A DNA stretch of 58,205 bases from an uncultured Methanobrevibacter sp. (lineage in GTDB: Archaea; Methanobacteriota; Methanobacteria; Methanobacteriales; Methanobacteriaceae): the NCBI RefSeq assembly GCF_902774605.1, contig NZ_CACYJE010000012.1, positions 1 through 58,205 of the forward strand. The letters run 5' to 3'. The notes under the pieces were generated by a model that worked only from the letters and a program-made list of their open reading frames with translations, was not told where the DNA came from and did no database searches. Made by a program: the position numbers and the translations under genes. Each line of letters opens with the position of its first letter. Positions within the stretch are counted from its first letter, which is position 1. This document shows positions 51,104 to 55,447 of the stretch, one piece after another.

Positions 51104-51997
51104 TCATCCGTCCCTATCAATCTTTTTAAAGGCCATAGGATATACTGCAAGCATTATGAATGTGCATAATGAATACTTGATGCAGTCAACTAAATCGGTT
51201 TTGCCTGCAAGTTTCGGAATCAGGACAAAAAGCAATACAAACAATACGATTGCCCCTAAAACCCTAACTATCGCATCACGTCTGCTTTTAGGGTTTTCGA
51301 AGTTAACGTATTTTTCCTCAACAAGAAAACCCAATGATATACCTGCAGCCAATGCCACATACTTGATATAGCTTATTGCAGGACAGAACACGATTCCCAC
51401 TAAAGACAATGCGACAATGCCCAAATAAAGATACTGCCTATATTCAGTCCTGTCGAAAATGCGGGACAATAGCAATATTATCACCAGGGCAATGAGGAAA
51501 CCTGCAATTGTGTCTGTGGGAAAGTGAACTCCCAAACCTACCCTTGAAAGCGCAACAATCAAAACTCCAATCAATCCAAGTGCAATATATAGATTATTCC
51601 TGATGTATACTGGAATGGCCAGAAACAGGTTGGTTGCCATCATCGAATGCCCACTTGGAAGAGAATACCCTTGTATTTTAAAGTCCAAAGGATTCTGGCC
51701 CGGAACATTGGGGTAAATACACTTGATTTTATCCACAACGGCATATGGCCTTAAACGTGCAACCGTCACCTTGACAAACTCGCAGCAAACGCCAGCCACA
51801 CCCAACGAGAGCAATGTGAATTTGCCCCAATCCTTATTGTATGCCAAATAGACTAAAATGAATAATAATGCAAGAACATTCTTAGAAACTACATTCGCTA
51901 TAATTTCAAAAAAACTAAATATGAAACCCGGAAGGATACTCTGCATGAATAGTATCAGATTAACCTCCCATGGAAAATAGAAAACTGTTTCAATCAT
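51104..51997 (-). CDS. PAP2-family membrane phosphatase
   Basis: A 297-residue integral membrane protein with a PAP2 acid-phosphatase domain; the three motifs are complete: KVTVARLRP (K-x6-RP), LPSGHSMMAT (PSGH) and SRVGLGVHFPTD (SR-x5-H-x3-D). The C-terminal half has extra helices. Members dephosphorylate lipid or polyprenyl (di)phosphates; an undecaprenyl- or archaeal-lipid phosphatase role is plausible. Its ATG follows 56 bases after the stop of the methyltransferase-STAS gene on the same strand. Confidence 0.9.
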   Translation of the reverse strand: MIETVFYFPWEVNLILFMQSILPGFIFSFFEIIANVVSKNVLALLFILVYLAYNKDWGKFTLLSLGVAGVCCEFVKVTVARLRPYAVVDKIKCIYPNVPGQNPLDFKIQGYSLPSGHSMMATNLFLAIPVYIRNNLYIALGLIGVLIVALSRVGLGVHFPTDTIAGFLIALVIILLLSRIFDRTEYRQYLYLGIVALSLVGIVFCPAISYIKYVALAAGISLGFLVEEKYVNFENPKSRRDAIVRVLGAIVLFVLLFVLIPKLAGKTDLVDCIKYSLCTFIMLAVYPMAFKKIDRDG

Positions 51998-52053: not shown

Positions 52054-53325
52054 TTACAACATCCTAATGCCCGTGCCTGACAAATCTTCAATGACAGTTT
52101 CATTGCATGATTCCATTATGATTCCGCCATCGCAGTCATTTTGCATGATAAGAAGAACCCGTAGACCTGCAGACGATACAAATTCCAGTTTGGAGCAGTC
52201 AATGAACACACTGTCGATAGTGTTATTCTCCTTAATCTTTTCAAAATTGGCAAGAAGCTTAGGGGCGCTTAGCGTGTCCAAATTCCCTGACAAGACCAGG
52301 TTAAGCCTGTCACCATAAATTGACGCATCCGCATTAAAGGACTCGGCCTTGGCATCGGAAATGTCATCCTCCACTGATTCATCAATGCTGATTTTCCATA
52401 TGCATACATTCTTAAATCCTTCCTTAATATGAGCCGCAATCTTAGGGTCGGCATTCTCCAGACTTCTAAACTCAGGCACATGGTCTGCATATGGAAGCCT
52501 CTCCAGTTTAAATCCCTTAGATTTAATATAATCAATTGCATTCCTCATATTCTCTTGAACATCCCCTCGAAGGCTAATGGTTATTGAATTCTCTACGGAC
52601 TTTACATCTGATTTGTCATCTATCCTATACTTGGACCTCCACATGATCTCTCTTGTCCTGTCCCCATAGAACGCCTTAACTATCAAAACATACAGAAAAG
52701 ATATCTCAGGGTCGAGGGTAATCCAGTATCCCCCATGCTCTGATAGAACCCTCTTAATATTCTCGCACATAGCATCCATTTCATTATCCGTAAGATACAT
52801 CATGAGGCCCTCGGTTGTTATGCATACCTCCCCGTCAATCTTATCAAATGCGGATTTGAGCGACTGATAATTGGTTACATCGACACCCTCGAAATCAACA
52901 AGGTCCCTGTGTTTCTCATCAAGCAGTGCCATTATGGCCGGCTCAACCTCATTGATTGTTGCAGGAAGATCCAATCCAACATATTTCCTGCCCATTCTTG
53001 CAAATTCAAGGGCACGGGGCGTGAAGCCACATGGCAAGTCAGCCACTGTAAAGCCAGACTCCTCGGCGAGTTTTCCATTGGTAGAATATCTCACATCCAT
53101 AACTATGCTGTTAACGAAAAGGTCATCCTCGTCGGCCTTGACTGTCTTGCTGTCTTGAGTATCTTCACGGGTGAGATTCAGCCACTCGACCAAATCCCTG
53201 GCATCATCATGACCTGTCTTGGCCAATTGAAAAAGAGTCATCCTTGCAGTGTTGAATATGGGATTGGTTCTCTCCAACAAGCCCTGGTCAATTTCAATTC
53301 CGTCAAAGTTGAAAATATTATTCAT
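52054..53325 (-). CDS. LCM-like SAM methyltransferase fused to a STAS domain
   Basis: A 423-residue protein with two parts. Residues ~1-310 form a SAM-dependent methyltransferase of the leucine-carboxyl-methyltransferase/Tcmp type: TVADLPCGFTPRALEFARMG (SAM loop), YVGLDLPATI, CITTEGLMMYLTDNEM. Residues ~335-423 form a STAS (anti-sigma-factor-antagonist) domain: DRLNLVLSGNLDTLSAPKLL and VFIDCSKLEFVSSAGLRVLL, with the SSAG loop that carries the phospho-acceptor serine in this fold. Substrate is unknown. The STAS part suggests control of the enzyme by a kinase/phosphatase switch or nucleotide binding. Likely co-transcribed with the PAP2 gene. Confidence 0.85.
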   Translation of the reverse strand: MNNIFNFDGIEIDQGLLERTNPIFNTARMTLFQLAKTGHDDARDLVEWLNLTREDTQDSKTVKADEDDLFVNSIVMDVRYSTNGKLAEESGFTVADLPCGFTPRALEFARMGRKYVGLDLPATINEVEPAIMALLDEKHRDLVDFEGVDVTNYQSLKSAFDKIDGEVCITTEGLMMYLTDNEMDAMCENIKRVLSEHGGYWITLDPEISFLYVLIVKAFYGDRTREIMWRSKYRIDDKSDVKSVENSITISLRGDVQENMRNAIDYIKSKGFKLERLPYADHVPEFRSLENADPKIAAHIKEGFKNVCIWKISIDESVEDDISDAKAESFNADASIYGDRLNLVLSGNLDTLSAPKLLANFEKIKENNTIDSVFIDCSKLEFVSSAGLRVLLIMQNDCDGGIIMESCNETVIEDLSGTGIRML

Positions 53326-53555
53326 AATCTCTCCTATTACATACTTTAATCAAATTAATTAATAAAATAAACTATAATATTCCTAGGAACAAAAACACCC
53401 AAGCAGGTAATGAAACTGGATTTTCCCAAACTCTTTTCCAACAAATCAGTTGCCGAATTGGACTTTTAAAACTAAAAAATTAATATATGCCTCCTCAAAA
53501 CTGGAAAAATGGAATGTTTTTTTTAACATGAAAAGTCAAATATAAAATTGATAAT

Positions 53556-54698
53556 ATGAATCCTATCCATTTTTTCACATTGGGCTATTACCCCAAGTAC
53601 CTGTTAACAGGAATAATTATAGGAATTGTCATTGGAACATATGCATTTTTTAGAGTGAGACATGCTCTTAATGATTCCAAATTATCTAAAAACAAAGTAA
53701 TGATAATCAGTGCCCTGATTTCAATATTTGCATTCATATGCTGTTTGAACATATGGTCAAATGCTGCAATATACACATTATACATCTTTTTATGCTCTTT
53801 ATTTGCAGACATCATTAGACTAATCGTTAAATATGCACTTAAAGACAAATATTTAAAATTCATGCCAAAACTTCACAAAAAAGGCGGGCTGGCATTAATC
53901 CTTTTCATGATCATAATCATATCAGGAGTGTACGGCATGAACCATATTGATCAAACTGAATACAATATGACCACACAGAAAATAGGCAATGATTCCTATA
54001 AAATAATATTCATCAGCGACACACACTATGGAACCATCCAAAATCCCCAATTGCTTAAGGATTCAATTTCAAGAATCAATGATATAAAACCCAATATTAT
54101 TATTTTAGGTGGAGATATTGTTGATGAGAGAACAAGCAATTCTGAAATGAAGGAAGTTTTTGAAGAGTTAAGCAAGATCAACTCAACATATGGTACATAT
54201 TACGTATTTGGAAACCACGACACACAGCCTTCACAAACAGATTATGAAAATGGAAACAGAACATTTACTGACATTGAATTAAATCAAACAATAAAGAAAA
54301 ATGGAATAAGGATACTGGATGATGAAAAAACAACAATCAATGGAGATATTGTTCTGGTTGGAAGAAGCGATGCTGAATGGGATGGAAATGCCGAAAGAGC
54401 AAATGTTAGTGAAATATTGAATGAAGACGATTTATCAAAATATGTGATAGTTATAGACCACCAACCTTTAGAGGCAATAGAAAATTCAAAATTAGGTGTT
54501 GATTTACAAGTTTCAGGCCATACCCATGCAGGACAGGTATTCCCATATAAGGAAATAATAGAATATGAAGGAGTAAATTCATATGGCAAATACACTACTG
54601 GAGATATGGAACAGATAGTGTCCTCAGGCCTTACAGGATGGGGATGGGGAATTAGAAATGAAGGAAAATGTGAATACGTGTTAATTAACATTAATTAA
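53556..54698 (+). CDS. Membrane metallophosphoesterase (YkuE-like)
   Basis: A 380-residue protein. Four to five N-terminal membrane helices (about residues 10-130) are followed by a calcineurin-like phosphoesterase domain with complete metal motifs: IIFISDTHYGTI, IIILGGDIVDER, YVFGNHDTQPSQ and VSGHTHAGQVFP. Similar proteins (YkuE) are thought to act on lipid-linked or peptide substrates near the membrane. The domain would lie on the side set by the helices, which I cannot fix. Stand-alone gene; A 61-base repeat begins 22 bases after its stop. Confidence 0.87.
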   Translation: MNPIHFFTLGYYPKYLLTGIIIGIVIGTYAFFRVRHALNDSKLSKNKVMIISALISIFAFICCLNIWSNAAIYTLYIFLCSLFADIIRLIVKYALKDKYLKFMPKLHKKGGLALILFMIIIISGVYGMNHIDQTEYNMTTQKIGNDSYKIIFISDTHYGTIQNPQLLKDSISRINDIKPNIIILGGDIVDERTSNSEMKEVFEELSKINSTYGTYYVFGNHDTQPSQTDYENGNRTFTDIELNQTIKKNGIRILDDEKTTINGDIVLVGRSDAEWDGNAERANVSEILNEDDLSKYVIVIDHQPLEAIENSKLGVDLQVSGHTHAGQVFPYKEIIEYEGVNSYGKYTTGDMEQIVSSGLTGWGWGIRNEGKCEYVLININ

Positions 54699-54826: not shown

Positions 54827-55167
54827 TTAATGATAAAGAATTTTTTCTAAATATTCTTTAATTTCTGGAACATCATCATGCATAACTTCCCAAATTATAT
54901 CATCAATTATATTTTCATAATTAGGGGCAGTGACATTTCTCAATCCAATTAATTGACCCCATTCAATTCCATCATATTCTTCAAGAAATTCATCTGAAAA
55001 TCATTGGCAAATTCTCCCATTTGGATTATAACTAATGCACAAGCATCTTTATATAAACTGTCAGACATGTAAATTTCTTTATCATCATCAAATCGATTTA
55101 AATAATCAGCAATACGGTCACAATAGTCAATTATGGTTTCTGCACTTCTTTTATCTTTCTCGTTCAT
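54827..55167 (-). pseudogene. HepT-like HEPN toxin gene, frameshifted and missing the catalytic His
   Basis: The open frame of 72 codons from ATG 55167 ends QMGEFANDFQMNFLKNMMEL, off-family after FANDF. Adding one base at the A-run 54997-55000 (T-run on this strand) restores a normal HEPN ending: FSDEFLEEYDGIEW, then LIGLRNVTAPNYENI and IIWEVMHDDVPEIKEYLEK, ending at 54827 (about 113 residues). HepT nucleases need R-N-x3-H-x-Y. Here it reads RNVTAPNY: the His is Pro, so even the restored protein should be dead as an RNase, though the Tyr that MntA-type enzymes AMPylate remains. The start has GGAGGGGG upstream and overlaps the mntA end by 17 bases, as in MntA-HepT operons. Confidence 0.75.
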
Positions 55168-55447
55168 ATAAAAGAACCCCCTCCTTGCTTATTGCTTCGA
55201 GAAATTTTTTATTTGAACTGCCTTTACTAACTACATCAACATGGCAATTAAATTCATCTTCCAAATCTTGGACTAAAGAAACATATTGCAGACCTTTCAA
55301 ATCACCTTTATCCATTACAAAATCCAAATCACTATTTTCATTGGCCTCTTCCCGAGCGTAAGATCCGAAAAGACTAAAAGTACTTATACCATATTTAATT
55401 ACAATTGGAATAACTCTTTTTCTAATATCATCAATAGTAAAAACCAT
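55151..55447 (-). CDS. mntA: MNT-domain nucleotidyltransferase, MntA-type antitoxin
   Basis: A 98-residue minimal nucleotidyltransferase. The polymerase-beta-like signature is intact: FSLFGSYAREEANENSDLDF (GS-x10-D-x-D), with a later third Asp in CHVDVVSKG. In MntA-HepT (type VII) systems MntA transfers AMP to HepT tyrosines to silence its RNase. It is complete and reads cleanly, whereas its partner is decayed. The cell may keep the antitoxin alone, or MntA may be on its way out. AAAAACC precedes the ATG with no strong ribosome-binding site. Confidence 0.85.
   Translation of the reverse strand: MVFTIDDIRKRVIPIVIKYGISTFSLFGSYAREEANENSDLDFVMDKGDLKGLQYVSLVQDLEDEFNCHVDVVSKGSSNKKFLEAISKEGVLLYERER

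Follow-up and report, generated by a model that had tools for sequence, protein, structure and literature searches.

We found that a gene of an uncultured Methanobrevibacter sp. encodes a 423-amino-acid protein in which a putative class I SAM methyltransferase, distantly resembling Ppm1, Ppm2 and TcmP, is followed by a STAS domain carrying the serine loop of the anti-sigma factor antagonists. The C-terminal domain is certainly a STAS domain, the fusion of the two halves is fixed, and both halves are under purifying selection. In the reading we prefer, to which we give somewhat less than an even chance, a sigma-free partner switch takes its input through the STAS half and gates the attached LCM-like methyltransferase. 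The window, by which we mean the whole stretch of 58,205 nucleotides that was analysed, contains the following features:

52054–53325, minus strand: the methyltransferase-STAS fusion gene, 423 aa (open reading frame and full-length relatives)
53331–53335, minus strand: ribosome-binding-like AGGAG, 5 bases 5′ of the fusion start codon (read from the sequence)
52351–53325, minus strand: LCM-like class I methyltransferase part, N-terminal, aa 1–325, a tentative assignment (weak Pfam and profile-profile match)
52756–53049, minus strand: putative SAM-binding core of the fusion, aa 93–190 (aligned to LCM proteins)
52057–52335, minus strand: STAS domain, C-terminal, aa 331–423 (PF01740, pLDDT, Foldseek)
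52171–52173, minus strand: codon of Ser385, equivalent to SpoIIAA Ser58, the phosphorylation site there (alignment to 1th8_B and 1tid_B)
51104–51997, minus strand: PAP2-family phosphatase, 56 bases downstream of the fusion gene on the same strand, not proven to be part of the system (PF01569, E 2e-23)
53556–54698, plus strand: metallophosphoesterase, divergent from the fusion gene, not proven to be part of the system (PF00149, E 8e-16)

Distribution, selection and gene neighbourhood

The gene is a single intact frame with an ATG start. A match to the fusion at E 1e-20 is present in 20 of the 138 genomes of the archaeal family; 17 of these belong to the window's genus, which is represented by 67 genomes, and 3 to the rest of the family. 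The frame is open over its full length in 13 of the 138, the window's own genome included; one of the 13, G111 (locus L004), has an open frame with an ambiguous start codon. Broken copies were found in G036, G108, G067 and G140, a STAS relic with stops in G078, and copies cut by contig ends in G027 and G125. Exact peptide patterns of the window protein, which reach close relatives only, hit six Methanobrevibacter loci in genome contigs; the close relatives that carry a name all belong to Methanobrevibacter, with one assembly coming from goat ileum according to its title. When the methyltransferase half alone was used as the query, 19 of the 151 genomes of the phylum matched, and STAS sequence was present in all 19. 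The two halves were thus not found apart among these 151 genomes, contrary to the possibility, raised in the preliminary description, that they never occur together elsewhere.

The same domain order is found on plasmid pSRC2 of Selenomonas ruminantium TAM6421, with 34% identity over 95% of the query (E 5e-67; 72,556 plasmid records searched). This homologue is publicly annotated as 'STAS domain-containing protein'. A fragmentary copy lies on pSRC1 of the same strain, and no other plasmid among the 72,556 records covers 80% of the fusion query. A chance or assembly join of methyltransferase and STAS is excluded, because the same order is open over its full length in the 13 family genomes and present on the Selenomonas plasmid. 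The search of 50,697 phage records gave no match to the fusion at E 1, and two pattern scans of viral contigs (40 candidates and 1 candidate) gave none that was confirmed; a phage or mobile origin of the fusion was rejected on these negatives. For distant bacterial relatives, the search covered plasmids, phages and viral contigs. A search of 23 genomes of another archaeal phylum (that of G050), run without a positive control, gave no match at E 1e-12.

Median dN/dS was 0.14 for the methyltransferase half (76 usable of 78 pairs) and 0.19 for the STAS half (72 of 78), from a set with one copy per genome, as in the 14-row set below (G007 has two copies). Higher values, 0.45 and 0.49, came from two closely related pairs (dS 0.055). 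Short relics of the fusion precede an ABC transporter gene at L004:6411–6614, where the full-length frame lies 2 kb off, and at L051 near 7527 (G014:C1:607526). The fusion locus occurs with its neighbours twice in one assembly (G007:C14 and G007:C41; L047 and L048), which may reflect duplication, mixed strains or an assembly artefact.

A PAP2 gene lies within a few genes of the fusion in six of the loci read (the window, L004, L007, L009, L100 and L106). It was rejected as a fixed operon partner, as it was not seen in the stretches read of other loci, some of them short. The metallophosphoesterase is likewise next to the fusion in L007, the closest relative, and next to the relic of G014 (L051). 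An alpha/beta hydrolase was considered as a methyl-esterase partner and dropped: the hydrolases neighbouring the fusion in L005 (G103) and on pSRC2 are barely alike (best segment 24 bits). The L005 hydrolase is an ordinary gene, present in 45 of 138 family genomes; it co-occurs with the fusion or its trace in 12 genomes and adjoins it in one of them only, G103. Relatives are also numerous on bacterial plasmids. PADLOC returned no match for the fusion protein, and a defence role was rejected on this negative. Elsewhere in the window (54949–55447, minus strand), a nucleotidyltransferase (Polbeta; PADLOC PDC-S09) is followed by a protein of 72 aa to which Pfam gives no match. The latter possibly is a HEPN-type partner, and the pair a possible toxin-antitoxin type system.

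The two halves of the protein

The C-terminal assignment made in the preliminary description is borne out. Residues 337–420 match the Pfam STAS family PF01740 with E 2e-8 (34.4 bits against a cut-off of 22.6), the half also matches PF13466 (E 4e-7), and PF01740 is matched at E 1 or better by all eight rows of A1, an alignment of fusion proteins from archaea and a bacterium. A structure prediction rejecting the STAS fold had been named as a refutation. The AlphaFold model (7-row alignment) predicts the fold confidently, with ten-residue pLDDT means of 72–94 over aa 331–423 and of 63 or lower elsewhere in the protein. The top Foldseek matches of this half are SpoIIAA chains in complex with the kinase SpoIIAB (1thn, 1tid, 1til and 1th8; E 1.9e-6 to 1.5e-5), the best being 1thn_B (E 1.9e-6, TM 0.78 of target). 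TM1442 and RsbV of the RsbV/RsbW complex (6m36) are also among the top matches, and sulfate transporters rank lower than SpoIIAA and RsbV.

The loops of 1th8 (DSSG) and 1tid (DASG) align with VSSAG of the fusion family, which puts Ser385 at the position of SpoIIAA Ser58, a serine that belongs to the conserved STAS loop (PMC8256260, in the part consulted). Ser385 is invariant in the 8 rows of A1, in the 14 rows of a set of 13 archaeal genes plus Selenomonas, and in the 7 sequences of a further alignment (A3) that takes in five stand-alone RsbV-like proteins of archaea. These five, the RsbV of the window's own genome among them, have the same SSAG loop as the fusion. The fusion scores below the NCBIfam anti-sigma factor antagonist models (35.6 bits against a cut-off of 53.45 for TIGR00377; 23.2 against 114.75 for TIGR02886), and for this reason we say that it would work like RsbV, not that it is one.

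The N-terminal half is harder to place. Pfam gives a weak Methyltransf_25 match from aa 94 (E 0.0055). The LCM family, PF04072, is what the preliminary description had proposed; its cut-off of 22.3 bits is not reached by the fusion (12.1 bits, E 0.18). The best E-value among the eight A1 rows is 0.02, and the copies of G007 and G101 score 16.9 bits. A profile-profile comparison against 20 LCM proteins from this archaeal family gave a score of 49 (probability 88%) over aa 93–190, obtained without the default realignment, with which no useful alignment resulted. The best of 30 column-shuffled controls scored 21, the reversed profile 15, and the positive control, two LCM groups, 388. In this alignment DLPCGFTPR (motif I) is paired with the N-I-x-C-G-L-D-x-R stretch of LCM proteins, DLP (aa 119–121) with their DLP or DFE, and EGLMMYL (aa 172–178) with their EGxLMYL, in the same order as in LCM; the names motif I, DLP and EGxLMYL for parts of the SAM core are those we take to be customary. 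D119, L120, P121, E172, G173, M176 and Y177 are invariant in A1.

Structure prediction did not refine this picture. AlphaFold models of the methyltransferase half from shallow alignments (7 and 5 rows) had mean pLDDT of 51 and 50. The weak structure matches of the low-confidence model include methyltransferases, among them 2zw9_B (TYW4; E 0.019) and 6id6 (Rv0731c; E 0.1), both of which we take to be LCM members. VIA-align gave, among the matches listed (best 50), mostly generic Rossmann folds below Z 6 and some methyltransferases, with no LCM protein by title among these 50. A claim about the fold of this half was dropped on account of the two low-confidence models and generic Rossmann matches. 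'LCM-type' is thus right for what the profile comparison suggests, a distant relationship, and not as Pfam-level membership. LCM proteins over the cut-off are present in 54 of 138 family genomes; none of them is the fusion, and none is in the window's own genome.

Partner-switch genes and other enzymes and exporters with switch-like domains

The window's own genome has two STAS genes besides the fusion, on contigs C13 and C48. On C13, genes for RsbV, an RsbW-like kinase and a SpoIIE phosphatase form a complete module. An NRPS of 2604 aa is encoded about 3 kb away, with a MATE protein directly after it. The C-terminus of this MATE protein (L043:15161–16888) has a partial HATPase_c_2 match of 20.6 bits, below the cut-off of 27.4. 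HATPase_c_2 occurs in two places in this genome, both on C13. The STAS gene of C48 lies at the contig end, beside a 4′-phosphopantetheinyl transferase. The genome encodes a TFB-type transcription factor. No bona fide sigma factor is known in archaea (PMC2686161, as far as the excerpt goes).

Such genes are widespread. SpoIIE is found in 84 of 138 family genomes and HATPase_c_2 in 92, in 87 of them over the cut-off; within the genus the counts are 52 and 56 of 67. RsbV-, RsbW- and SpoIIE-type genes surround an NRPS in M. ruminantium M1, where the authors link them to NRPS regulation (PMC2812497), and partner-switch proteins are also present in Methanomicrobiales, their targets being unknown in these methanogens (PMC2686161). 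Both papers thus describe modules like those of the window's genome; in the excerpts seen of each, the switch proteins are separate and no STAS-enzyme fusion is mentioned. In Anabaena, all4160 is a glycosyltransferase with an N-terminal STAS domain (PMC8256260, same part). Like our protein it joins STAS to a non-transporter enzyme, and it differs in enzyme class, in its reversed domain order and in being bacterial. The preliminary description called the fusion of STAS to a class I SAM methyltransferase unusual, above all in an archaeon. The fusion is real and conserved, but STAS domains are not foreign to this archaeon, given the frequency of SpoIIE and HATPase_c_2 in the family and the modules known from methanogens, and all4160 is a precedent for a STAS-enzyme fusion. 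The methyltransferase-STAS fusion adds to STAS-enzyme fusions already known. No paper on it was found in a literature search judged on titles and abstract openings, and the word 'methyltransferase' is absent from the main text of the STAS review PMC8256260.

SpoIIE and HATPase_c_2 are both present in each of the 17 genus genomes that carry the fusion, whole or as a trace (probability by chance 0.007 and 0.03, treating genomes as independent). Of two unrelated accessory genes used as controls, one shared its genome with SpoIIE in 33 of 38 cases and with HATPase_c_2 in 34, the other in 28 and 29 of 33 cases. The co-occurrence of fusion and switch is therefore weak evidence, as the controls behave similarly and species are not independent, and we dropped its SpoIIE part as proof of a switch. 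Outside the genus, neither SpoIIE nor HATPase_c_2 is matched in G067, which has a broken gene, or in G078, which has a relic; G140 has a broken copy together with both switch proteins.

A kinase or phosphatase near homologues had been suggested as a check, and the linkage observed is weak. SpoIIE lies within 10 kb of the fusion in 2 of the 17 genus genomes against 0.36 expected (P about 0.05; several contigs end sooner), counted among the matches listed, which included the places of all 17 genomes save the single one of G036; no SpoIIE relative was seen on the fusion contig of G036. In G016 a SpoIIE PP2C domain, from a SpoIIE gene split in two ORFs, lies about 1.2 kb from the fusion, and in G101 a tandem SpoIIE pair lies about 7 kb away. 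No kinase gene was seen beside the fusion in the loci read, and on pSRC2 HATPase_c_2 (PF13581) was not found at E 1, the plasmid alone being searched.

Other proteins of these lineages also carry switch-like domains. A cluster in G122 (L134), detected by BLAST also in G016 and G101, comprises two SpoIIE genes, RsbV, a MATE protein with a weak HATPase_c_2 tail (L134:5664–7412; 22.1 bits, below the cut-off) and a 711-aa fusion of a GH3-family amide synthetase with an RsbW-like HATPase_c_2 domain (L134:7737–9872; 57 bits, over the cut-off). The GH3-HATPase_c_2 gene recurs at L135:13768–15903 and L136:6479–8614, and the cluster is absent from the window's own genome as far as the HATPase_c_2 search shows. 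On pSRC2, about 8 kb from the fusion gene, a 577-aa MATE protein (L131:10000–11733; MatE only in Pfam) has a C-terminal extension weakly like the tails of the archaeal MATE-HATPase proteins (14 bits when three sequences were searched). Its gene sits between that of a GCS2-family ligase and that of a 452-aa protein without a Pfam match, which in our reading resembles an ATP-grasp ligase. Taken with the methyltransferase-STAS fusion, the GH3-HATPase proteins and MATE tails are cases in which enzymes and exporters bear switch-like domains, more than once in these lineages.

A possible sigma-free partner switch and its alternatives

In the mechanism we propose, RsbW-type kinases would still bind the STAS half and use it as a substrate, as they did ancestrally, and the STAS half would pass its state to the methyltransferase in cis. 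An RsbW-type kinase would bind the unphosphorylated STAS half and phosphorylate Ser385, a SpoIIE-type phosphatase would take the phosphate off, and kinase binding or release would gate the activity, substrate access or location of the methyltransferase half. We infer that the kinase and phosphatase of C13 act on the fusion, as we do the direction of the switch and an active methyltransferase. As a first guess, the methyl group would go onto a carboxyl or hydroxyl of a small, peptide-like molecule, because the switch modules of the genus adjoin NRPS and exporter genes. The protein resembles SpoIIAA and RsbV in its STAS fold and phospho-serine loop, and its genome also encodes a kinase and a phosphatase of the appropriate families; it differs in that its STAS domain is the C-terminal part of an enzyme, in its scores against the antagonist models and in its TFB-based host. 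It resembles the LCM family, whose members include LCMT1/Ppm1, TYW4 and bacterial TcmP-like enzymes, in a predicted SAM core with the DLP and EGxLMYL motifs in the same order, and differs in its score, its altered motif I and its C-terminal STAS domain. The phospho-switch control of methyl transfer proposed in the preliminary description thus keeps its phosphorylatable serine and its candidate kinase and phosphatase, whereas the linkage to SpoIIE is near the chance rate. Other points count against the proposed switch: the C13 module has its own RsbV and sits on another contig than the fusion, G140 has a broken copy alongside both switch proteins, HATPase_c_2 was not found on pSRC2 at E 1, the fusion scores below the antagonist cut-offs, and the LCM link spans aa 93–190 only, with a mean pLDDT of 50 for the methyltransferase model.

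The STAS half might instead not be phospho-switched at all, and be a nucleotide-, lipid- or self-binding module serving enzyme dimerisation or ligand sensing. STAS domains are parts of transporters and of MlaFB, and the fusion occurs on pSRC2, a plasmid on which we recognised no HATPase_c_2. SpoIIAA itself binds GTP, and ATP less well (PMC8256260, in the part consulted). However, the nearest folds are phosphorylatable partner-switch proteins and not SulP or MlaB, and the phospho-serine loop is invariant; we consider this reading unlikely, if the strongest of the three alternatives. More improbable is a protein whose enzyme half is dead or has become a binding domain, so that what is left is an altered anti-anti-sigma-like protein paired with a Rossmann-like domain. 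Such a loss would fit motif I, which reads P-C-G-F-T-P-R against the C-G-L-D-x-R type of the LCM profile, and the failure of this half to exceed any Pfam cut-off, but it sits badly with a methyltransferase half that is somewhat more constrained than the STAS half and with the invariance of D119, E172 and the EGxMY motif across archaea and a bacterium.

The order of control might also be reversed, with STAS as a docking arm and the enzyme methylating the RsbW-like kinase, RsbV or SpoIIE, so that it tunes the switch rather than being its output. LCM enzymes include protein carboxyl methyltransferases, a STAS loop identical to that of the organism's own RsbV could bind the same kinases, and HATPase_c_2 accompanies the fusion or its trace throughout the 17 genus genomes. 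Yet there is no conserved gene link to one kinase and no methylation site that can be named, and we give this reading as little credit as the dead enzyme. The sequence evidence favours a phosphorylatable STAS domain together with an enzyme under constraint, whose coupling is a proposal.

A wider reading, doubtful at present, is that partner switching in this archaeal family has been rewired onto enzymes and exporters instead of sigma factors, with methyltransferase-STAS, GH3-kinase and, less clearly, MATE-kinase fusions served by SpoIIE and lying partly near NRPS genes. If this is true, the long-missing targets of the archaeal 'anti-sigma' systems could be read from the fusion partners: synthesis, modification and export of a small molecule of acyl-peptide type. 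Archaea may use a phospho-switch to control enzymes directly. The fusion is a tangible candidate target of archaeal partner switching that can be purified, and it may be one of several outputs at the level of enzymes.
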